NCBI GenBank assembly: GCA_943324565.2 | Contig: CALPMC020000026.1 | Coordinates: 1-32,320, forward strand | Origin: Chitinophaga pinensis | Lineage (GTDB): Bacteria > Bacteroidota > Bacteroidia > Flavobacteriales_D > Crocinitomicaceae | Direction: 5' to 3' | Length of the DNA stretch: 32,320 nt | Part shown: positions 12,502 to 23,688 of the stretch, piece after piece | Position numbering within the stretch: the first letter of the stretch is position 1 | Layout of the letters: every line of letters starts with the position of its first letter | Program-made: the position numbers and the translations under genes | The notes under the pieces: generated by a model | What the model saw: the letters and a program-made list of their open reading frames with translations, nothing else | Told to the model about the DNA's origin: nothing | Databases searched by the model: none

Positions 12502-12532
12502 TAAAAGTACAAAAAAAAAGTTTAACTACAAA
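12502..12532 (-). promoter_or_regulatory. Strong Bacteroidota-type promoter of the small T9SS protein gene
   Basis: On the minus strand TTTG (12532-12529) is separated by exactly 19 nt from TACTTTTA (12509-12502), seven of eight positions of TAnnTTTG with ideal spacing. The expected start is near 12495, about 15 nt before the ATG at 12481. The -33 box overlaps the stop codon of the upstream gene. Confidence 0.65.
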
Positions 12533-15081
12533 TTAGTTAAATATTTCTTTATTTTATTTAAATCAAAATTACAATTTAAGAATTCACTTAGAATTGATAT
12601 TTGCTCCATATCAGAATCTATAAGCTCATTCCAATTTAGAATTAGAACTTGTTGATTAGGTTGGGATTCTATCCATAAATCAATGATGTATTTTTCTTTT
12701 TCAATGATATTTAACATGTTTACCGAAATTGATTTTTCTGGGATCGATTTTTTTAATTTTGCAGTTCTAACTGGAAGAATTTCATCAAACGTTTGATCCA
12801 AATAAATTACTTTGTAGTTATAATTTACTGGTAAATCACTTAAATTCCGACTTGGAATATAAACTACCTTACCGATATTGTTTTCTAACCAATCATTGGT
12901 AAATAAAATCTTTGACGCTTCATTGAATTCATCCTTATCATAATCTATATTTAGTCCACCGAAATTCAGCAACCTTAGTAATTGCTCATATTCACAATTA
13001 TCAACTCCTGTACAAACAATAATTTCTCCTTTTATGTTGGATTTCAAAAACGCCAAATTTTGTTCGGCTAGTTCTGGTTTATTTAGTTTATTTTGATAAA
13101 TTTCCACCAACCATTTGTGCGCTTTTGTCATTCCAGGAGTTAGTCGAGTACAAACTTGAAAGGCACTAACAGCATCTTCAAATAAATCCAATTTCACCAA
13201 AGTCTCCCCTAAATGATAGTGAATATTTGGCTGAAAGAAATCTTGTTCCAAAGCCAATAGAAATTCATCAACTGCCTCATTGAATTGACTTTGGCGCAAA
13301 AAAGACATACCCAATCCATAATGAGCAGCGGTACTTCTATCATCTATTGCTAGCGCAGTAATGTATTGTTTTTCTGCTGCTTTAAAGTTCTTTCTAAGCG
13401 TATGTATTTGAGCAATACTGGTTGCAAGCTGAAGGTTGTTCGGATTTTTTTTCTGTACATTTTCCAATAAAGGAAGGGCCTTTCTTGGTCTATTCATTGC
13501 AAGATTCAATAGTCCTTCTAGGTATTCCAAATACATTGGTTCTTCAAACTCATTATTCCCAAATGGATCATTCTTTGAGTCTGCCTCCTTCTTACGATTA
13601 CTGCGTTCCTCTTGATCAACCGCCTTCAGTTTTTCAATAATTTCCTGGCATTTCATGTACATTTTCTTGCTTAAATAAGCAAAAGCTAATCGCTGTCCAT
13701 AACGCAATATATTAGATTCTTCAAAAATACGTTCCAGAATTTCAATAGCAGGTTTCAACCTACCACCATTAATCATATTTCGGGCAATATAGTATTCGTT
13801 TTCACGCTTACTTTTTTCAACTTGAAGTAATTTATCGTCTTCCATTGCTTCAATATAGCCCAACTCAACCAATTGTTGAAGTGCTTCTTGTGCTGCCCAT
13901 GGGTCCTCTCGCATCAATGTATCATGCTGACCAGTTTCACCCGGAACATCTTCCCAAGAGTCAATCATTTTAGCCATTTCTGGTGTTTCAAAACATTGGT
14001 AAAGTACCTTGCCCTCCATGTCTTTCCCAACAGATAAGCCAGCATGGTAAAGGATTGTTGGAGTAATATCAATAATACTTGCTCCAGAAATTTGTTCTCC
14101 TTGTTTTATTCCAGGACCTGCCATCACCAAAATTCCATAAGGACTATGTTCAACAGCTGGACCGGAGGGTTCCTGAGGAATATAAAGCGGGCGTTGATGA
14201 TCGGAATGAAATCCATGATCAGAGAGAAGAATTACAGTTGTATTTTCATCAATAATGGATAAAGTACGATCTAGCATCATATCATGAAAACGATATCCTG
14301 CCTCCACAACATCTTTATAATTTTCATAATCTTCAATCGGTATTTCAGGTCTTCTTGGTGGAAAATAGCGCATTGCGATATGACAAAAATGGTCAATAGC
14401 ATCGTGATAAACAGCCATAAAATCCCATTCAGTTTCAGCCATTAAATAAGTAGATGCGGAATGGATAGTTGCGGCGTTGGATAATGTTTTTAGAACAGAA
14501 AGCGTTTTATTAGCTTTTCGTAATTCAAGATTATCTACAATATTAGGTATGAATGGATGAGCCATTGCCAACGAAATTTCGTGCGGATGAACCCTAAACT
14601 CCTTCATTGTTTCACTCAAAGATTCCGGGTGAACGGTACCATTTGGCATTTCCCAATCTTCACCAAAGGCTTTTGTGGCAACTTGATACAAGTTTGAAAC
14701 CATAACTCCATTAATTGGTTCTGCAGGGTTACTTGGCCACCAAGCAACAACATTACTTTTCCATCCTTCTTGATTGAAAATGTTCCAAATTGCTTTTACT
14801 TTTCGGGATGTTGTAGTAACTGGCCTCAATCCTTCTCCATTTGGCGTTGGCTCAACAAAACCTCCAATTCCGTGTTTATCTGCCCGAACTCCGGTTGCAA
14901 TACTTGTCCAAAGCATGGGTGATAATGGTGGGTCGAGGGTTTGTAAGCGGCCATGAACCCCTCTTTTCATCAAGGATTCAATGGCGGGCATTTTTCCTTG
15001 TTCAATCAAAGGCATTATAATCTTCCAATCAGCAGCATCCCAGCCAATTACAAGTATTTTATTTTTTGTTTTTTTTGACAT
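12526..15081 (-). CDS. Alkaline-phosphatase-superfamily phosphohydrolase with TPRs and a sulfotransferase-like C-terminal domain
   Basis: This 851-residue protein has no signal peptide. Residues 7-370 form a COG3379/type I phosphodiesterase-like hydrolase domain. Metal and catalytic positions appear as Asp15 (VIGWDAADW), a probable nucleophile Ser54 (PPLSPMLWTS), Asp230 and His234 (DHFCH), Asp288-His289 (LSDHG) and His312 (EHSPYG). Residues about 425-680 are TPR-like helical repeats. Residues 685-851 align by eye with the sulfotransferase encoded two genes upstream: CTGV with TGLP, GKVV with GKVV, and YKVIYLDQTFDEIL with YRVLFMRRDIEEIL. The P-loop is lost (GLPRSGTS becomes GVDNCEYE). The start overlaps the preceding microprotein gene by 23 nt. 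The likely reaction is phosphate or sulfate ester hydrolysis; the substrate is unknown. Confidence 0.87.
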   Translation of the reverse strand: MSKKTKNKILVIGWDAADWKIIMPLIEQGKMPAIESLMKRGVHGRLQTLDPPLSPMLWTSIATGVRADKHGIGGFVEPTPNGEGLRPVTTTSRKVKAIWNIFNQEGWKSNVVAWWPSNPAEPINGVMVSNLYQVATKAFGEDWEMPNGTVHPESLSETMKEFRVHPHEISLAMAHPFIPNIVDNLELRKANKTLSVLKTLSNAATIHSASTYLMAETEWDFMAVYHDAIDHFCHIAMRYFPPRRPEIPIEDYENYKDVVEAGYRFHDMMLDRTLSIIDENTTVILLSDHGFHSDHQRPLYIPQEPSGPAVEHSPYGILVMAGPGIKQGEQISGASIIDITPTILYHAGLSVGKDMEGKVLYQCFETPEMAKMIDSWEDVPGETGQHDTLMREDPWAAQEALQQLVELGYIEAMEDDKLLQVEKSKRENEYYIARNMINGGRLKPAIEILERIFEESNILRYGQRLAFAYLSKKMYMKCQEIIEKLKAVDQEERSNRKKEADSKNDPFGNNEFEEPMYLEYLEGLLNLAMNRPRKALPLLENVQKKNPNNLQLATSIAQIHTLRKNFKAAEKQYITALAIDDRSTAAHYGLGMSFLRQSQFNEAVDEFLLALEQDFFQPNIHYHLGETLVKLDLFEDAVSAFQVCTRLTPGMTKAHKWLVEIYQNKLNKPELAEQNLAFLKSNIKGEIIVCTGVDNCEYEQLLRLLNFGGLNIDYDKDEFNEASKILFTNDWLENNIGKVVYIPSRNLSDLPVNYNYKVIYLDQTFDEILPVRTAKLKKSIPEKSISVNMLNIIEKEKYIIDLWIESQPNQQVLILNWNELIDSDMEQISILSEFLNCNFDLNKIKKYLTNL

Positions 15082-15212: not shown

Positions 15213-15764
15213 TTAATTTCTATTTCTATAAAGTGAAGGATTAACAGCCGAGGCGATATCCTGCCAATTAGCATCAATTTCCAAAAAATCAATGATTTTA
15301 TTCAATTCAACTTCTGTATTATTTATAAGTTCTTTATACCAAACATCAACGAATGGAATTTTGTATGTTTCAAAAAAAGTATAAGTTTTCTTTAAATGAA
15401 GTTCGTAAATTGTTTTGAATTTTTCTCGTTCAGAAGATTGGTCTTTGTCTAACATTTTCTCTTGTGAGCGCAAAATTTCCTCTATGTCTCTTCGCATAAA
15501 AAGAACACGATAGCTCAATGTTTTATCTAAAAAAAGTGGGAGTGGAGTAACGATTTTAACAACCTTACCTTCAGCATCTTTCAAAAATGAATTGTTTTTG
15601 ACAATACCTTTAACAGCCTCAAGTTCGTAATAGCCTTCTGGATTATTTATGTCTTTTTCACGATGACCATCTGACAAGATTGGAAGAGAAGTTCGTTCCA
15701 TTATTTGCATCATCAAAGAAGTTCCAGATCGTGGTAAACCAGTTACGATTGTTACATTTCCCAT
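15213..15764 (-). CDS. Small sulfotransferase-family protein
   Basis: This 183-residue protein has the PAPS-binding features of sulfotransferases. The 5'-phosphosulfate P-loop is GLPRSGTS (9-16) after a beta strand (VTIVT). The 3'-phosphate region is YRVLFMRRDIEEILRSQ (85-101), with Arg and Ser100 in the expected places. Other family hallmarks are NPEGYYELE (41-49) and a C-terminal NPSLYRNR. It would transfer sulfuryl groups from PAPS to an unknown acceptor in the cytoplasm. It is shorter than most sulfotransferases (250-300 residues), lacking much of the acceptor-binding part, so the acceptor site may be supplied by a partner. It heads the operon with the microprotein and the TPR hydrolase, whose C-terminal domain appears paralogous. 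Confidence 0.85.
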   Translation of the reverse strand: MGNVTIVTGLPRSGTSLMMQIMERTSLPILSDGHREKDINNPEGYYELEAVKGIVKNNSFLKDAEGKVVKIVTPLPLFLDKTLSYRVLFMRRDIEEILRSQEKMLDKDQSSEREKFKTIYELHLKKTYTFFETYKIPFVDVWYKELINNTEVELNKIIDFLEIDANWQDIASAVNPSLYRNRN

Positions 15765-15984: not shown

Positions 15985-16614
15985 TTAGGCGGTTTTATTA
16001 GTTGAAAAATTGCACAAATATTCGTTTAGACTTTCTTCCGCATTTAATCCCATTTTCTGTTTTATCTTGTTTTTATATATCCTAACCGTACCGATAGTTA
16101 TACCTTCAATAACAGAGATTTCTTTAGTACTTAAATGCAATCTAAAGTAAGTGCATAGAATTCTTTCTTTATAACTTAACTCTGGGTGAAATTGTTCTAG
16201 TGCTTTCTGGAACAGACCTTTATAGTCTAATGCAGTTGAATTCTTCACAATATGTTTTTTATCAATTTCACTCAGGTTTAGTAGTTTTAATTTCAATTCT
16301 TTTACAAGGTCTTTGGAATCAAAATTTTCTTTTGCATCAACTTCATATATTGTTTTTATAAGTTCGTCATCAAATGTTTTTTTTAATTCCAATTTTGTAT
16401 TTAAATCAGCAATCACCTTTTCTTCTTTTTTCAATTTGTCTTCAATTATTCTGGAGTCTGTATTGATGTCTTTTTTTGAACCCAAATCCGAATTTTTAAT
16501 TTCAACTTTCCTTTTTAAAATAAAGTTCGTTGAAAGTATCAAAGCAAATACTGAGATTAAAATAGCTACAATTAATAAAATGTTAAAAAGGTTATTGTTA
16601 AAAAAATCACTCAT
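15985..16614 (-). CDS. Membrane-anchored coiled-coil LuxR-type transcriptional regulator
   Basis: This 209-residue protein has a single N-terminal membrane helix (about 9-33, LFNILLIVAILISVFALIL). A charged lysine/glutamate-rich coiled-coil follows (about 50-105), then a C-terminal LuxR/GerE-like helix-turn-helix (about 145-200; ELSYKERILCTYFRLHLSTK, EISVIEGITIGTVRIYKNKI). Many Bacteroidota regulators carry TPRs before such a helix, coiled coil and HTH. Here the TPR part is missing, and only about eight residues precede the helix, so no extracytoplasmic sensor is visible. It lies downstream of two response regulators on the same strand, separated by 188 nt. DNA binding from the membrane is inferred from the architecture; the signal and targets are unknown. 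Confidence 0.8.
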   Translation of the reverse strand: MSDFFNNNLFNILLIVAILISVFALILSTNFILKRKVEIKNSDLGSKKDINTDSRIIEDKLKKEEKVIADLNTKLELKKTFDDELIKTIYEVDAKENFDSKDLVKELKLKLLNLSEIDKKHIVKNSTALDYKGLFQKALEQFHPELSYKERILCTYFRLHLSTKEISVIEGITIGTVRIYKNKIKQKMGLNAEESLNEYLCNFSTNKTA

Positions 16615-16802: not shown

Positions 16803-17423
16803 TTAAATTAGTCCGTTTTTTTGAGCAAAATTAAACATTCCAATATTGTTGGAGACGTTAACTTTTTTATAAATTTTAGTCTTATAACCTTCAATCGTTT
16901 TTTCAGAAATGTTCAATGAATTGGCAACCTCTTTATTAGAAAATCCTTTGCAAACAAGTTGAACAATTTTTATTTCTTTTGAATTTAATGAATGTATGAG
17001 TTCATCCTCAAAATCAAGAAATAACTGTGAAATTTCGGGACTGAAATATACTTTATTATTTGAAGCTTTATTAATCGCTTCTAGCAATTGTTCTTTACTT
17101 GAATTTTTTGTTAAATATGCTTTTACTCCATACTTATATAAGTCTTTTATAATCGCCAACACGTTAAGCATGGAAATAACCACAATATTAACATTTGGAA
17201 TTCTATCAAGCATTGTTTTTATAGTTGAAATAGAATTGCCGTCCTTGAGGTTGATGTCCATTAATATAACATCAACTTTGTTTTGGATGCAAAATCCTAA
17301 AGTTGCTTCGCAAGTATCTGCCTCACCTATTATTTTAAAATTAGGCTCTTTTTCAATAGTTATTTTAAAAGCATCTCTAACGAGTTGATGATCTTCAGCA
17401 ATAAAAATTGTAATAATTTGCAT
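16803..17423 (-). CDS. NarL/FixJ-type response regulator (orphan paralogue)
   Basis: This 206-residue two-domain regulator has a receiver domain (2-120) and a LuxR-type HTH (about 143-203). Receiver active-site residues are present: acidic pair Glu10-Asp11, phospho-acceptor Asp56 (DVILMDINLKDG), Ser84 and Lys106 (LTKNSS). The HTH includes LNSKEIKIVQLVCKGFSNKE and SEKTIEGYKTKI. It is identical at more than half of positions to the response regulator at 17806-18435 and probably arose from it by tandem duplication. No kinase gene adjoins it directly, so it may share the neighbouring kinase pair. A 382-nt gap with a perfect inverted repeat separates it from its paralogue, suggesting its own transcription. 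Confidence 0.93.
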   Translation of the reverse strand: MQIITIFIAEDHQLVRDAFKITIEKEPNFKIIGEADTCEATLGFCIQNKVDVILMDINLKDGNSISTIKTMLDRIPNVNIVVISMLNVLAIIKDLYKYGVKAYLTKNSSKEQLLEAINKASNNKVYFSPEISQLFLDFEDELIHSLNSKEIKIVQLVCKGFSNKEVANSLNISEKTIEGYKTKIYKKVNVSNNIGMFNFAQKNGLI

Positions 17424-17805
17424 GATAATAAAAAGCTTTTTGAAATGTTATTTTTTAATCCTTTTTAAAAAGATTTTTAGTCAGATGACAATTGAAAATT
17501 TAATTGAATTTTTCGTTGTTCTAGCATATCAAACTTATTGAATCAGAATTGATTTTATGGATTTAAGCAAAAGTAATAAGTTAGCTTAAGGGTTTAGTGT
17601 TTTTTAAATTAGGGATTGCCCTAATTTAATTTTGTGTAAAAGCGGAATTTACTTAACAAATAACAGTCTTTTTTTTGGATGTAAAATTAATCTTCAAGAA
17701 ATAAACAATAATTACCGATACAAAAAAGTTGTTAAGAATAATAATAATGGCTAAAAACGCAAAATTTAATGCTAGATATTTTTATCATTAATTGACTACA
17801 ATAAA
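17424..17805. other. Gene-free gap between the two response regulator genes
   Basis: This 382-nt stretch is very AT-rich and holds no supported gene on either strand. Two symmetric elements are visible: the GGG/CCC inverted repeat at 17604-17629, and a short perfect palindrome CTTTTTAAAAAG at about 17460-17471, close to the downstream regulator start. I see no good TAnnTTTG promoter for the gene at 17423. The gap probably contains the control region of that gene. Confidence 0.6.
17604..17629. repeat. Perfect 11-bp inverted repeat, candidate operator
   Basis: The core AAATTAGGG-ATTG-CCCTAATTT (17606-17627) is a perfect 9-bp inverted repeat with a 4-nt centre, extended by two further T:A pairs. 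On the minus strand, the direction of the flanking genes, the stem is followed by A-rich rather than T-rich sequence, so it does not look like an intrinsic terminator. It could be a dimeric regulator binding site about 180-200 nt upstream of the response regulator gene at 17423. Confidence 0.55.
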
Positions 17806-18435
17806 CTATGAGTTGATTAATCCGTTTTTTTGTGCGAAGCAATAAATACCAATATTGTTAAACACTTTGAGTTTTTTAAAGATTTTGGTTTTATATCCTT
17901 CAATTGTTTTTTCGGACATTTTCATATTTATACCAATTTCTTTATTAGAAAAACCCTCGCAAATGAATTGAATTACTTTTATTTCTCTTGAATTTAAGGT
18001 GTTAATTGTTTCATTATCTCTTTCTAACAACAATTGAGCAATTTCTGAGCTATAATATTTTTCGTTATTGTATGCTTTTTTAATTGCTTCTATAAGTTCT
18101 TCCTTACTTGAATTTTTGGTTAAAAATGAACTGATTCCTGTTTTATATAAATCTTTTATAATGGAATAAACATTCAACATAGAAACAACTACAATTTTCA
18201 CTTTTGGAAGGGTATCAATCATTTGTTTTATGACTTCAATCGAACTTCCATCCTTTAAATTGATATCCATTATAATAACATCTACCTTGTTTTTTGAACA
18301 ATATTCAAGTGCTTCAGCTCCAGTTTCAGCTTCGCCAATAATTGAAAATTTAGAGTTGTCTTCAATTGTTAATTTCCAAGCATCACGAACTAATTTGTGA
18401 TCTTCCGCCAAAAAAATTGTTATCTTATTACTCAT
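17806..18435 (-). CDS. NarL/FixJ-type response regulator coupled to the kinase pair
   Basis: This 209-residue regulator has a receiver domain (4-122) with Glu11-Asp12, phospho-acceptor Asp57 (DVIIMDINLKDG) and the conserved Lys in FLTKNSS. The LuxR-type HTH (about 145-205) contains LNSREIKVIQFICEGFSNKE and SEKTIEGYKTKI. I chose the ATG at 18435 (MSNKITIFLAEDH); an upstream in-frame TTG at 18459 would add eight residues inside the kinase gene and is less likely. The ATG overlaps the last 8 nt of the upstream kinase gene (18428-20158), so translation is probably coupled and this is the cognate output of that kinase. Target genes are unknown; the membrane LuxR gene, the paralogue and the gap repeat are nearby candidates. 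Confidence 0.94.
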   Translation of the reverse strand: MSNKITIFLAEDHKLVRDAWKLTIEDNSKFSIIGEAETGAEALEYCSKNKVDVIIMDINLKDGSSIEVIKQMIDTLPKVKIVVVSMLNVYSIIKDLYKTGISSFLTKNSSKEELIEAIKKAYNNEKYYSSEIAQLLLERDNETINTLNSREIKVIQFICEGFSNKEIGINMKMSEKTIEGYKTKIFKKLKVFNNIGIYCFAQKNGLINS

Positions 18436-20158
18436 TTGTTTGAATTTTAATGTAAACAATTAATCCCATTTGATTGATGTTGAAAAAGCGTATTTTTCCT
18501 TCTAATAGATAGATTCTGTCTTGGATCGATTTTAAATTTAGATTCCCAATGGTGGACTCTTGATTATATTTTCCGTTATATGAGCAAATAACTACAAAGT
18601 CTGAATCAATTTGTTTAAATCGAAAAACTGTTTTTGTTATTTTTGAAGTTTCAATTGAAAAACGCATCAAATCTTGAACAATCCTATGAATATGTTTTTT
18701 CGATTTGTCATTAATGAATATTGGTTCAATAATGTCTGTTTCCACCCTGAATTTTATGACCGTAGAATTAAATCCTAAGATATAATCGGTTATGGAAGAT
18801 ACAAAAGATGCTCCAAAAACAAATTGAGTGGTAGATTCCAAGGCAATTTTACGAATATGTTCAATTGCAATTTTAAGTTTAGAAACAGAGTTTTCTAGAT
18901 TTTTGTTCGTCAAACCTGAGTTTTCGATATTTAAGCGTGCTGCAAATAAAAGTTGATTGATTCCGTCATGTAATTCAGTGTATAATTCTTCTTTATTTTT
19001 TTCTCTTTCTTCGATTAATTGTTCAGCGATCTTTATTCTTCGTTCAGAAGTTTTTTTTAATTCTTTTGTTAACTCAATCGATTTAGTTATATCTCTTGAA
19101 ATTACAATCGCAATTTGAAATTTACCATTTGAGTCATAAGTAAAAGTTATACAGCTTTCAATCCAAATAATTTTTTGGTTAGCTGAGAAAACTGGATGTT
19201 GAGTTTTTAATTTTTCTTGCTTCTGATCAATTGCATTGGTTATGTTAAGTATTAAATTCTGTAAATCTTCCGGATGAAAGTAATCCATTGTTTTAGAAAG
19301 TGAAATTGGAAAATCTTTAAATTTCTTACCAACCAAATTTTCAACAGCATCATTAATATAGATAGCTTGTAATTTTTCATTAAAAATCAATAACCCATCA
19401 GATGTGTTTTTATTAAAGTAATTTAAAAGATGATCACGTGAATTAATTTTATTTTGTAATTCAACTTGGTTAACTAGATTTTGAACAAATGAACCAATCT
19501 GTTGCGTATTAAGTTCGAATCGGTTAAAAAAACCTGTTAATTTATCTGAGTATTTATTTTTTGTAGATGTAAAATTATCTTCAAATTCACTTTTATTTGA
19601 TTTTTCTTTGGCTTCTTGTTCTTTAGGTAATTTAAAAATTGTTGAAGAAGAATTAGGTAAATCATCATTTTGAAAGGATACAGAAATTGCTTTTTGCCTA
19701 AGATTTATATGTTGTTTTATTTCCCCCGCTCTAAAAACCAATGTTGAAGTCAAAAAATGAGTACCAATTATTCTTGTTAATTTTCCTTCTTTGTTCGCAA
19801 GTGCTTGAGCTTTGACACGTATCCAAATTATTTCTTCATCTTTTTTGAACATACGAACTGTTTGGTCAAAAGGAATTTTAGGGTTTTCAATATGTAATTG
19901 AAGCATCTCTCTCGATAAGGCAAGGTCATCTTGATGAATAATTTCTTGCCATGAATCTGAAGTTAAAGGCATTTCAGTAGGATCAAAACCTAAGGTTGTC
20001 CAATAGTTTTTGCTCATCCATTCATGCTTTGGATTTTCAAGGTTCCAATACCAAATTCCATCTAAAACTTCATTGCAAATGAAATTAAAAGTTGAAATAT
20101 CATTTTTTATTTTTTGATTAAATTCTTGTTCTAAATTAACTGGTTCCACTTTTTTCAT
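18428..20158 (-). CDS. PAS histidine kinase with intact phospho-acceptor His but degenerate ATP-binding domain
   Basis: This 576-residue protein has no membrane helix and is probably a cytoplasmic sensor. It has a PAS domain with PAC segment (about 22-140, VLDGIWYWNLENP, IWIRVKA), a low-complexity linker, a second PAS (about 245-358, DGLLIFN to ISRDIT), a HisKA_3-type dimerisation helix, and a HATPase-like C-terminus. The phospho-acceptor motif is intact: ELHDGINQ with His397 and Asp398. The ATP-binding domain is degenerate compared with its neighbour: the N-box Asn is Phe500, the N-box Lys and His are Glu503 and Thr504, the D-box Asp is Tyr527, and the two glycines of GxG are Asn539 and Asn541. 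Autophosphorylation alone therefore looks unlikely. The stop overlaps the response regulator start. Confidence 0.9.
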   Translation of the reverse strand: MKKVEPVNLEQEFNQKIKNDISTFNFICNEVLDGIWYWNLENPKHEWMSKNYWTTLGFDPTEMPLTSDSWQEIIHQDDLALSREMLQLHIENPKIPFDQTVRMFKKDEEIIWIRVKAQALANKEGKLTRIIGTHFLTSTLVFRAGEIKQHINLRQKAISVSFQNDDLPNSSSTIFKLPKEQEAKEKSNKSEFEDNFTSTKNKYSDKLTGFFNRFELNTQQIGSFVQNLVNQVELQNKINSRDHLLNYFNKNTSDGLLIFNEKLQAIYINDAVENLVGKKFKDFPISLSKTMDYFHPEDLQNLILNITNAIDQKQEKLKTQHPVFSANQKIIWIESCITFTYDSNGKFQIAIVISRDITKSIELTKELKKTSERRIKIAEQLIEEREKNKEELYTELHDGINQLLFAARLNIENSGLTNKNLENSVSKLKIAIEHIRKIALESTTQFVFGASFVSSITDYILGFNSTVIKFRVETDIIEPIFINDKSKKHIHRIVQDLMRFSIETSKITKTVFRFKQIDSDFVVICSYNGKYNQESTIGNLNLKSIQDRIYLLEGKIRFFNINQMGLIVYIKIQTNE

Positions 20159-20167
20159 AGCCGGTTG

Positions 20168-21790
20168 TTAATTTGTTTTTGGAAATCTAATTGCTAAGTA
20201 AATTGCCAATCCTGTTTTTTTTAAACAGAAAAAACGAATAGTTCCATTCATTAAATAGACACGATTTTGGATGTTTTTAATACCAACACCAGAATCCATG
20301 TTGTATTCAAAATTCCCAATGCTATTATCCTTTGCAATTAAAACAAATGTATCTCCGATCTTTTTAAATCTAAAAACCATCTTTGATGCATTAGAATGTT
20401 TAGTAGCATTTTGCGCCAATTCTTGACAAATTCTAAAAATGTGTTTCTTTTGACTTTCATTTAATTCTTCAGATATAATAATTAAATTTTGAACTTCAAA
20501 TTGAATTTTTGAAGTGTTATTTATCAAATCAAAGTACGCTTTAATTTCGGTGACAAAATTGTTTTCCATAACGAATAATGAACTTGATTCAGTCGTTATT
20601 TTATGCAATTCATTAATTGCTGTTGTTATATGTTGAAAAGCTGCTTGAATATACGTGTTATTTTGATAGCCAGAAATTTCAATATCATTTTTAGCATCAA
20701 CTAGAATATGTTCAACTTTATGTTTTAAGTTTTTGTACAGTTCTTTTTTTCCGATCTCTTTTTCTTCGATAATTAAATCAGCAATCTCTTTATATTTTAA
20801 AGATTCTTGCTCCAATGAATACTCAATTAATTTTCGTTCAGTAATATCTCTTGAAATGATGTATGCTCGTTTGTAGTTTCCTTCAGAATCGTATTCAAAA
20901 TTCACGTGGTCTTCCATCCAAACTAATTTTCCTTCAGAATGATTTGCTAAATGTTCTCCTTTTACTGATTTTTCTTTGTCTAATAAAGCTTTTTCATAGA
21001 TTTTATGAATTTGAGCTTTGTGACTTGGATGAATAATTTTGAGACTTTCAGAAAGTTCAATTGGCAATTTTTCAATTCTTCTTCCTATATATTCTTCTAT
21101 TTGTTTGTTCGCATAGATTAACTGAAAGTTTTCATTAAAAACTAGAAATGAATCTTTAGTTGTTTCAACCAAATGAGCTAAAAGGTCATTTTTAGAATTT
21201 AATTGATTCGTAAGTTTTTTTTGCTCACTAACATCAATTAAAAACGATTGAATACTTGTGTTTTTTGCTTGATTTTCATGTGATTGACCGAAAATTTGAT
21301 TCTGATTTTGTTGATTTATTTGAGTTTCTACTTTGTCAAATGATTGGTGTAAATTATTTGATTGTTTGTCTAATTCCGATAAACTTGAAACATTCAATGT
21401 AGTATTCACAATTAGCATTCTTATTGGTTCACCAATTTCGTTTCTTACCGCAATTCCTTTGTATCGAATCCAGATAGTGCTTCCATTTTTATGCTGGCAC
21501 CTTACAATTTGACCAAAAGGTATTTCAGGATTTGCAAAATGCGACGCCATTAATTCTATAGTTTTCGCTAAATCTTCAGGATGAACTAGACTTGTCCAAT
21601 GTTTTCCATTTTCAGAAAAATCACTGATTTCATAGCCAAAAACTTTAAAAAAAGAAGAACTTACAAATTCATTATTTGGATTTTCTAAATCCAGATACCA
21701 AATTCCATCCAAAACACTTTTTTGAAGGAAATCAAATACTTGATCTCCCTCAGCTAATTTATCATAAAGTTCTTTTTCTAGATAATGCAT
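20168..21790 (-). CDS. PAS histidine kinase with intact ATP-binding domain but no phospho-acceptor His
   Basis: This 540-residue paralogue of the next gene has the same layout: PAS/PAC (about 22-135, VLDGIWYLDLENP, IWIRYKG), a Gln/Asn-rich linker (about 140-185), a second PAS (about 205-318, ISRDITERK), a dimerisation helix and a HATPase domain. The ATP-binding residues are retained: N-box QELAQNATKH (Asn461), D-box Asp488 with Gly492, and GVG (501-503) followed by IKNIQNRV. The phospho-acceptor motif is lost: where the neighbour has LHDGIN, this protein has LKHKVE, with Lys356 in the His position. An adjacent His357 aligns with the catalytic Asp instead. ATG 21790 is chosen; a GTG at 21799 directly after a stop codon is the alternative. 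The gap to the partner gene is 9 nt. Confidence 0.9.
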   Translation of the reverse strand: MHYLEKELYDKLAEGDQVFDFLQKSVLDGIWYLDLENPNNEFVSSSFFKVFGYEISDFSENGKHWTSLVHPEDLAKTIELMASHFANPEIPFGQIVRCQHKNGSTIWIRYKGIAVRNEIGEPIRMLIVNTTLNVSSLSELDKQSNNLHQSFDKVETQINQQNQNQIFGQSHENQAKNTSIQSFLIDVSEQKKLTNQLNSKNDLLAHLVETTKDSFLVFNENFQLIYANKQIEEYIGRRIEKLPIELSESLKIIHPSHKAQIHKIYEKALLDKEKSVKGEHLANHSEGKLVWMEDHVNFEYDSEGNYKRAYIISRDITERKLIEYSLEQESLKYKEIADLIIEEKEIGKKELYKNLKHKVEHILVDAKNDIEISGYQNNTYIQAAFQHITTAINELHKITTESSSLFVMENNFVTEIKAYFDLINNTSKIQFEVQNLIIISEELNESQKKHIFRICQELAQNATKHSNASKMVFRFKKIGDTFVLIAKDNSIGNFEYNMDSGVGIKNIQNRVYLMNGTIRFFCLKKTGLAIYLAIRFPKTN

Positions 21791-21828: not shown

Positions 21829-22941
21829 TTAATCCTTTTTAAATGTAGGGATTAATTTTTCAACAGACAAAAAGGAAACGCCAATTAACATAAACTGAAT
21901 TGGTAATAAAGCTCTAAAGCCGTAAGAATCGATTGTAACGAATAAAATAGTAAGTGTGTAAAAACATATAATAAAGCTATTTAAAATAATTTCTGAGTAA
22001 GAAATAGTTATCCACTTTTTTATTCGAATGAAGAGATAATAGGAATAAAGAAGTATTAAAATAAGCCAATGAGGTCGCGGGAAATATTCAGGGTTTAAAA
22101 TGCTTAAAAAACCTAATGAAAAGAGAATTTTTTTATAAATTATGGTAAAATCTAGTGCTAAAAGTTGTTTCCATGAATCAGAAATCCCTTCGCTTGGCAA
22201 GAAAATCCAAGTTCCAGAAACAAGGTAATTTCTAATTCCTAGAGTGGATATTCCTAAAAAAAAGAAAAGTATCATTCCGAAAAGATTTTTCTTTTTTAGT
22301 TGTGGATTTTTAAAATAATAAATAACGATGAACAAAACATAAACAAAAGCAATTGGAAATAAAGTTGGTCGAATTAGTACTGAAAGCATCATAAAAAATG
22401 TCGCTAAAAATTGAAATTTCACTTTGCTTTTATCATATCCTAACTTTACAAAATAAACAAAAGTTGCTAATGTGAAGATTGCTAGGTTTTCACTTAAAAG
22501 TCTGAAAGAGTAGTATTTATATGTGTCAAGTAAAGCAACTGAAAATAAAGTCAAAAGCAGTGCAATTCCTGTGATTCCTGTTAATTCTTTTCTGAAAGCA
22601 TAATAAATCAATAAAATACTAAAAGCTAACATTAAACTTTGTATGAAATAAATTGGAATTAAGTTTTCTCCAAATAATAGAAAGCAAAAAGCCAAAAAGT
22701 AATTGTAAAAAAAACTTCCAGGTCCATAATAAACCGAAGATTGTGAGGGAATTAGTAAACCATTTTTTGAAATATCTTTAGCGTTGTCCCAATAGCGAAA
22801 CCAGTCATCAATGCCATTTGAAATGCCTGGTGTTGTTTCTGTTAAAGGATACAAGCGAATTATTGTTGCTACTAAAAAAAATCCTACAATAGCAAAAGCC
22901 AAATAATTACCGATTTTATAATAATAGGCTTTCGATTCCAA
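21829..22941 (-). CDS. GT-C (family 39/ArnT-like) membrane glycosyltransferase
   Basis: This 370-residue protein has about nine hydrophobic segments. The first (about 12-31) is followed by an external loop with the Asp-Asp pair GIDDWFRYWD (Asp45, Asp46), as in polyprenyl-phosphate-sugar-dependent transferases. Next are VYYGPGSFFYNY and the RLLSENLAIF region. It would transfer a sugar from a lipid carrier to a protein, lipid or glycan on the outer face of the inner membrane; the acceptor is unknown. The protein is somewhat short for the superfamily and lacks a C-terminal soluble domain. There is no ATG near the N-terminus; the TTG at 22941, one base after the upstream gene's TAG, is the only plausible start and suggests coupling to the SUFU-domain gene. 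It ends 38 nt before the kinase pair. Confidence 0.78.
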   Translation of the reverse strand: MESKAYYYKIGNYLAFAIVGFFLVATIIRLYPLTETTPGISNGIDDWFRYWDNAKDISKNGLLIPSQSSVYYGPGSFFYNYFLAFCFLLFGENLIPIYFIQSLMLAFSILLIYYAFRKELTGITGIALLLTLFSVALLDTYKYYSFRLLSENLAIFTLATFVYFVKLGYDKSKVKFQFLATFFMMLSVLIRPTLFPIAFVYVLFIVIYYFKNPQLKKKNLFGMILFFFLGISTLGIRNYLVSGTWIFLPSEGISDSWKQLLALDFTIIYKKILFSLGFLSILNPEYFPRPHWLILILLYSYYLFIRIKKWITISYSEIILNSFIICFYTLTILFVTIDSYGFRALLPIQFMLIGVSFLSVEKLIPTFKKD

Positions 22942-22942
22942 A

Positions 22943-23599
22943 CTATTTGCGATTTAAATCAGTGATTAACAAAGGATTTGTTTCCTTAAGTTTTGCCACT
23001 AAATCTTCAATTTGACCAACTGTCGGTGCTTCACCTAAGGCTTTTTCTTCTTCAGTAGTGATACCAACAATTTGTAGAAAAGTCACTTCTCCATAAGGTG
23101 TATTTATTTTTCCAAGTTCAGGATCAGCAGTAAAAATCAGAGCAGTAATTTCTGTTTCTGTATTCAATCGAATTGGACCTTTTGCAGAAACGAAATGATT
23201 TTCCTCAAACCAATTTCCAGAGGAATAAACATAACGTGCTAAATTATTCATAATTTGAATCGCCCAAATTGGATCGTCTTTATCTTCTTGAAATGGTACA
23301 ATTCGCATGGTGAATTCAAATCCCCACTTACTGAAATCATTTCCAACTTTTTCTTCATTATAGTATAATTCAGACATGCCATAGCTAATCAAATGTCGGT
23401 GAAATTCTTGATTTTTTGAATCATAAATACTCACGCCGTCAATTGGGTCGGTTCCACCAGCTATATAATGTAACCCGCACAAAGGACCATAATGACGCGG
23501 CTCAACTTCACCATAGATTGTTCCTAATTTCTCATCAATTGCTTTCCAACCTAATGTGTCGTCTTCGCTGTATTCTTTTTTGAATTCTTCTAAAGTCAT
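22943..23599 (-). CDS. Suppressor of fused (SUFU) domain protein
   Basis: This 218-residue cytoplasmic protein matches the bacterial SUFU-like domain. Typical stretches are HYGPLCGLHYIAGGTDPIDG, VSIYDSK, RHLISYGMSELYYNE, then KWGFEFTMRI, PIWAIQIMNNLARYV and FLQIVGITTEEE. In animals SUFU binds Gli factors. Bacterial homologues are thought to be protein-binding modules, often in immunity or toxin-antitoxin contexts, but no toxin is visible here. The ATG at 23599 (MTLEEFKKEY) is preferred; an upstream extension to 23677 would be basic, hydrophobic and unconserved. It is divergent from the SIMPL lipoprotein gene and tightly linked to the downstream GT-C gene. A TATTTTTG box (23612-23605) lies 5 nt before the ATG. 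Confidence 0.85.
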   Translation of the reverse strand: MTLEEFKKEYSEDDTLGWKAIDEKLGTIYGEVEPRHYGPLCGLHYIAGGTDPIDGVSIYDSKNQEFHRHLISYGMSELYYNEEKVGNDFSKWGFEFTMRIVPFQEDKDDPIWAIQIMNNLARYVYSSGNWFEENHFVSAKGPIRLNTETEITALIFTADPELGKINTPYGEVTFLQIVGITTEEEKALGEAPTVGQIEDLVAKLKETNPLLITDLNRK

Positions 23600-23604
23600 A
23601 ATCT

Positions 23605-23612
23605 CAAAAATA
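23605..23612 (-). promoter_or_regulatory. -7-like element before the SUFU-domain gene
   Basis: TATTTTTG on the minus strand fits TAnnTTTG but lies only 5 nt before the ATG at 23599, implying a leaderless or nearly leaderless transcript. No TTG is found at the proper distance. Confidence 0.3.
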
Positions 23613-23688
23613 AGAAAAACAATATTAAATGAAATTCTTCGATTATGCTTTATACTAATCAGTATCTTTATTTTCAAAAAACAAAATT

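Follow-up and report, generated by a model that had tools for sequence, protein, structure and literature searches.

Two adjacent paralogous kinases with reciprocal active-site losses: a candidate heterodimeric sensor kinase

The kinase pair and its active sites

The stretch analysed here, hereafter the window, comprises 32,320 nucleotides of contig CALPMC020000026.1 from an assembly labelled Chitinophaga pinensis (genome G000). It carries a cluster of signaling genes, all on the minus strand, which are transcribed in the order K2, K1, RR1 and then RR2. K2 (P0002; 20168–21790, 540 aa) and K1 (P0001; 18428–20158, 576 aa) are both kinases of the PAS-PAS-DHp-CA type, in which a pair of PAS domains is followed by a DHp-like helical region and a CA region, and they align end to end as full-length paralogues with 33% identity and 283 bits. 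RR1 (17806–18435) is a response regulator of the REC-LuxR/GerE type. The gap between K2 and K1 is 9 nt and the overlap between K1 and RR1 is 8 nt, as the initial annotation had read them.

The same annotation had proposed that the two kinases carry complementary defects. Residues were called from an alignment with three intact paralogues, namely K3′, the third kinase of a second genome (G106), and the family kinases found in G103 and in G003; these genomes all belong to a comparison set of 86 genomes from the genus (primes denote the G106 counterparts K1′, K2′, K3′, RR1′ and RR2′). In K1, the acceptor site reads ELHDGINQ with His397 intact (acceptor/phosphatase motif L396-HDGINQ-402, 18953–18973), and the ATP site is degenerate: the N-box Asn, Lys and His are replaced by Phe500, Glu503 and Thr504 (18647–18661), the D-box Asp by Tyr527, and both glycines of the G2 box by Asn539 and Asn541 (18536–18544). 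In K2, the acceptor site reads NLKHKVEH, with Lys356 at the position of the His (codon 20723–20725), and Asn461, Lys464, His465, Asp488, Gly501 and Gly503 are all present at the ATP site (N-box Asn461–His465, 20396–20410; G2 box, 20282–20290). Every residue previously named in the two proteins sits where it had been placed, and the losses stay in place upon realignment against the three intact paralogues, a comparison set in advance as a refuting test. The reciprocal loss therefore stands, but its description needed amending: the first D-box glycine of K2 is gone as well (DNSIG; Ser490), K2 has lost more than the acceptor His, and Tyr527 of K1 is not common to K1′. The wider loss in K2 comprises the Asp and Gln of the HDxxxQ motif and the equivalent of Leu200 of DesK, to which the response regulator docks. 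His188, Asp189, Gln193 and Leu200 of DesK map to His397, Asp398, Gln402 and Leu409 of K1, where 4/4 are kept, as against 0/4 in K2. Neither K1 nor K2 combines the acceptor His with the N, D and G boxes in a single chain, whereas each of the three intact paralogues does. As judged from sequence, the acceptor and ATP-binding functions are split over two proteins, in the sense known from CheA3 and CheA4.

Profile searches (Pfam, E ≤ 1; cut-offs of 24 bits for HisKA_3, PF07730, and 26.4 bits for HATPase_c) divide the proteins along the same line. HATPase_c is matched by all three intact paralogues and by both K2 proteins (30.5 bits for K2′ and 17.0 bits, below the cut-off, for K2), and no match was obtained within this threshold for K1 or K1′. 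Conversely, HisKA_3 is matched by K1 (13.3 bits) and K1′ (16.6 bits) but, at the same threshold, not by K2 or K2′. Both of these scores fall below the cut-off, as do those of the three intact paralogues (19.2, 13.7 and 13.8 bits). No HPt or CheA family is among the Pfam matches, and the K1 His lies in a DHp-like helix behind the PAS domains; the HDxxxQ motif, together with a fold match to DesK, puts K1 near the HisKA_3 class.

The predicted model of K1 (mean pLDDT 62.8) was used solely for the CA fold, since blocks from residue 451 on score 65–83, with 49 at residues 531–540 in the G2 region. The CA region models as a Bergerat fold, matching the CA domain of VraS with a Z-score of 17.4 and a deviation of 2.3 Å over 130 residues. 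The DHp-CA part resembles DesK (Z about 16), with a root-mean-square deviation of 3.6 to 12.7 Å, the hinge not being reliable. A preserved fold is what would be expected of a CA domain retained for structure.

Recurrence in a second genome and signs of selection

The same five-gene run is carried by G106, in which a SUFU-domain gene, a PMT_2 gene, K2′, K1′ and RR1′ are 87.5, 70, 52, 51 and 85% identical to their window counterparts, respectively, and K1′ and RR1′ again overlap by 8 nt. K2′ (P0006) reads NLKGAVEG at the acceptor and has an intact ATP site. K1′ (P0007) reads ELHDGINQ at the acceptor, has Phe, Glu and Cys in the N-box and Cys-x-Asp in the G2 box. Common to K1 and K1′ are the losses of the N-box Asn, Lys and His and of the G2 glycines; the D-box Asp, kept in K1′ and Tyr527 in K1, is the only difference in loss pattern. 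Thus, the sole orthologous pair found shows the reciprocal pattern predicted for such pairs. The pattern exceeds what chance would give, since it is found again in orthologues that are only about 51–52% identical.

A tree of 19 DHp-CA modules groups K1 with K1′ and K2 with K2′, each with support 100/100 (100/99 after removal of the catalytic columns), within a seven-member family supported at 100/99 (100/100 without these columns); the order in which the paralogues branch is not resolved. Since the K1 and K2 clades are fully supported, we reason that the reciprocal losses were already present before the two species separated.

At E ≤ 1e−43, the kinase family occurs in 4/86 genomes of the genus (G000, G106, G103 and G003; the best match beyond them has an E-value of 1.5e−14), and RR1-type regulators at E ≤ 1e−50 occur in the same four. 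G103 and G003 each have a single intact kinase near RR1-type regulators. Beyond the genus, no further full-length member was found in the family (240 genomes, best five candidates scored per genome) or in the order (399 genomes from a larger group, best three scored per genome), and viral contigs queried with K1 gave no relative. GTDB contigs yielded at least 81 confirmed loci, of which 80 were retained; the two close family members among the matches listed are those of G103 and G003, and the next best match listed has 30% identity over the last 196 residues.

How unusual the losses are can be gauged from the kinase modules of the retrieved loci (115 distinct long ones, after removal of 4 short ones from 119), a sample biased to intact LHDG motifs. 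Among these, only the two K1 proteins are without the N-box Asn and without the second G2 Gly, and only the two K2 proteins are without the acceptor His; a further 22 modules failed a strict ATP-site test, 21 of them for want of the first G2 Gly and one through a poor fit at the D box. Adjacent kinase pairs occur only in the G000 and G106 loci among 130 loci with a kinase match, so that these loci provide no baseline for pairs.

Both genes look to be under selection. Neither K1 (574 aligned codons) nor K2 (538) contains a stop; in a simple, composition-only model of neutral drift to the same nucleotide identity (500 simulations each), at least 22 and 18 stops arose, with means of 37 and 34, respectively. 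The NG86 ω is 0.19 for K1 and 0.32 for K2, values that are rough given a synonymous divergence (dS) near saturation. Over the structured domains, ω is 0.12–0.48 where computable (dS of K1 PAS1 is saturated; K2 PAS1, 0.48), and the linkers are loose (0.71 in K1 and 0.65 in K2). The K1 CA region is constrained, with 50% identity and an ω of 0.16, and we therefore take this inactive domain to be kept as structure.

Conservation is distributed in a complementary way. In stretches of 29 residues, K1 and K1′ are identical at 29/29 positions around the acceptor site and at 14/29 around the N-box Asn, as against 19/29 and 26/29 for K2 and K2′. This interaction between site and protein has a p of about 1e−7 when columns are treated as independent. 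The best conserved 25-residue stretch is the acceptor helix in K1 and the N-box in K2. With windows of 35 residues, the best stretch of K2 is 298–332 (the end of PAS2 and beyond), with the N-box second, and with windows of 15 residues K1 has another fully identical stretch at 431–448.

A lost third kinase and the neighbouring genes

In G106, the intact K3′ lies between RR1′ and RR2′. The corresponding interval in the window is 382 bases long and holds, on the right strand and at the right place, a fragment of K3 (17674–17739, minus strand) that matches residues 466–487 of K3′ with 16/22 identical. Without composition adjustment, the match scores 35.0 bits, compared with at most 25.0 in 1000 dinucleotide shuffles. 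With K3′ intact in G106 and a fragment left in the window, it follows that the ancestor had K3 and that the window's lineage lost it by deletion. K1, K2, RR1 and RR2 are nevertheless all open frames in the window. RR2 (16803–17423) is a second REC-LuxR response regulator and the orthologue of the regulator behind K3 in G106.

No intact family kinase was found elsewhere in G000 at E ≤ 1e−3 (179 contigs, 98.9% complete), and a second search at 1e−6 likewise gave none. Two HisKA_3 matches elsewhere in this genome are both distant from the K1/K2 family, and a further 15 matches to HATPase_c reach or exceed the cut-off, though not all of them need be kinases. If the system still works in the window's organism, K1 and K2 would have to supply it together or rely on an unrelated kinase. 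One HATPase_c match (G000:C18:18600–18911) has a single in-frame TAG.

Upstream of K2 on the minus strand lie the membrane PMT_2-like gene (21829–22941), which directly precedes it, and the SUFU-domain gene (22943–23617), the first of the conserved run. At 20159–20170, K2 and K1 share a reading frame, separated by the TAA of K2 and 9 nt; this is probably chance, since the frames differ in G106. Downstream of RR2, 15985–16614 encodes a small protein whose N-terminal part looks hydrophobic by eye and which has a helix-turn-helix of the LuxR/GerE kind (19.8 bits, below the cut-off) but no receiver match. Farther along are a sulfotransferase-like gene (15213–15764) and, adjoining it, the gene for a large protein (12526–15081) in which TPR repeats come after a type I phosphodiesterase domain. 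In G003 (L034:2098–5822), the RR1 orthologue (80%) is followed by a haem-NO-binding (HNOB) protein and then by the family kinase, in which HNOBA itself is matched weakly (19.7 bits, below the cut-off). There, the signaling family may be tied to nitric oxide (NO) or another gas signal.

A heterodimeric kinase and its alternatives

We consider it likely that K1 and K2 go back to the duplication of one ordinary kinase of the PAS-PAS HisKA_3 type, that the copies then degenerated in complementary ways, and that they now function as a K1:K2 heterodimer. What we infer beyond the sequences is that K1 and K2 dimerize and that phosphorylation runs across the dimer. Thus, the CA domain of K2 would bind ATP and phosphorylate His397 of K1, whose acceptor helix would pass the phosphate on to RR1, a transcription regulator of the LuxR type. 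By analogy with DesK and NarX, the HDxxxQ motif of K1 could dephosphorylate RR1 too. RR2, whose own kinase K3 is deleted, might perhaps also be served by K1/K2. The deletion of K3 in the window's genome adds support to the partnership, and the interpretation offered in the initial annotation is partly supported, in that the two refuting tests which could be run did not refute it.

As in K1/K2, CheA3 and CheA4 of Rhodobacter sphaeroides place acceptor and catalytic functions on two proteins; neither autophosphorylates alone, their mixture phosphorylates CheA3, and CheA3 is also a phosphatase (PMC3591291). These are, however, CheA-class proteins, CheA3 lacking the whole P3 and P4 domains and CheA4 the P1 domain, whereas K1 and K2 are HisKA_3-like, keep the full sensor-DHp-CA layout and have lost function through residue substitution. 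Hik36 and Hik43 of Synechocystis likewise form a "split histidine kinase" of two proteins that interact with one response regulator, but they are of the CheA/PilL type with an HPt part and their genes are far apart (PMC7656254). DesK of Bacillus subtilis (HisKA_3), the partner of DesR, has the same acceptor chemistry as K1 (PMC5231405) and is among its closest DHp-CA folds. Unlike the pair proposed here, it is a homodimer of one intact gene. The paralogous kinases ChrS and HrrS of Corynebacterium glutamicum form native heterodimers by two-hybrid analysis, with no two-hybrid signal from truncated ChrS; HrrS, however, is intact, and the ChrS pseudokinase arose in the laboratory and does not need its His (PMC9491836). 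A Caulobacter kinase without the His has been proposed, with no test, as a possible heterodimer partner of HmrA (PMC11481889). Few reports of histidine-kinase heterodimers exist (PMC9491836), and in the cases of DHp-kinase heterodimers known to us one partner is intact. Searches of open-licence papers turned up no natural reciprocal-loss pair of full-length paralogues, and the initial annotation knew of none among PAS HisKA_3 kinases; a search of the same literature for trans-autophosphorylation by DesK gave nothing. Split kinases are already known in the CheA class (CheA3/CheA4, Hik36/Hik43) through loss of whole domains. Since 3.66% of HisKA proteins have no HATPase match (PMC3591291), unstudied reciprocal cases may well exist.

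Could K1 and K2 instead be separate pseudokinase modulators of an intact kinase, rather than catalytic partners of each other? K1 would then be the equivalent of RetS from Pseudomonas, in which the HATPase domain is degenerate and the H-box and phosphatase motif are intact (PMC5992135); GacS, which RetS down-regulates, is an intact kinase, so that there is no reciprocal loss in that system, and a DHp co-complex of RetS and GacS has been solved (7n0e). K2 would resemble DivL, a catalytically inactive pseudo-histidine kinase that binds CckA (PMC12189002), and an intact K3′ lies immediately downstream in G106. In G000, however, all that is left of K3 is a fragment and the search for other family kinases (E ≤ 1e−3) was negative, yet K1, K2, RR1 and RR2 remain open, and modulation does not predict that the ATP box should be the best conserved 25-residue stretch of K2 and the acceptor helix that of K1. 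Unrelated kinases could still serve as partners, and we regard such modulation as unlikely. It is improbable, too, that K1 acts on RR1 by itself, as a phosphatase or as a phosphotransfer protein that an unrelated kinase supplies, and that the target of K2 is some other protein: the intact HDxxxQ of K1 and the other HATPase_c matches of G000 are compatible with this, but the adjacent, co-directional genes have been kept together across about 50% divergence, the common PAS-PAS-DHp architecture would be expected to heterodimerize, and G000 has just two further HisKA_3 matches, both of them remote. That both genes are decaying remnants whose reciprocity is accidental is very hard to credit; K3 in the same cluster did decay and K2 is without one D-box Gly, but the low ω in structured domains, the lack of stops and the losses common to two species by descent all speak for maintenance.

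Having favored the heterodimer, we would note several points that weigh against it. The pair was found in only two genomes. K2 of the window has a long branch (0.55 versus 0.24 for K2′), has lost the D-box glycine and scores below the HATPase_c cut-off, and the contrast between acceptor and N-box in K2 alone gives p = 0.056. For both genes, dS is near saturation and the ω values are rough. An intact family kinase might possibly have been missed in the 179-contig assembly, and in G106 the intact K3 could be the real kinase. A His in DHp α-2 is common to both K2 proteins (His387 in the window, 20630–20632; His386 in K2′, L047) where the three intact paralogues have Tyr, and window K2 also has His357 and His361, so that K2 could conceivably have another acceptor His. 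His357/361 were rejected as alternative acceptors, since K2′ lacks them. Loop handedness is cited as a rule for cis or trans phosphorylation (PMC5956149), and a cis-favoring DHp loop, if present, would make the K1:K2 heterodimer dead. A joined-chain K2-K1 model was rejected as uninformative on the dimer (pLDDT 49.9, pTM 0.31); in its alignment, intact relatives fell on the K1 half and the K2 half was almost without depth.

If the K1:K2 heterodimer does exist, it would hard-wire an asymmetry that the DesK homodimer already adopts. In the phosphotransfer state of DesK, one CA domain sits on α-1 of the other protomer, the other CA is free, and there is one response-regulator site per dimer (PMC5231405). 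Furthermore, modeling indicates that a split bifunctional kinase can give ultrasensitivity and bistability provided that its phosphatase is the free acceptor protein (Amin et al., PMC3591291), a role that K1 fits. More tentatively, we propose that K1 and K2 may constitute a natural obligate heterodimeric sensor kinase, built by duplication and complementary active-site decay, that fixes the one-site-at-a-time asymmetry; K1:K1 would be a phosphatase only and K1:K2 a kinase, a switch-like output would thereby be set by the K1/K2 ratio together with two separate sets of PAS inputs, and the pair would have outlived the intact kinase in the window's lineage.

On the evidence of sequence, there are two full-length paralogues, in two species, each of which keeps one half of the reaction. 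If the heterodimer reading is true, this would be an unusual way of building a bacterial sensor, and would offer a natural system, free of engineered mutants, for cis versus trans phosphorylation, half-of-sites asymmetry and the segregation of kinase from phosphatase, the last of which is predicted to allow bistability (PMC3591291).

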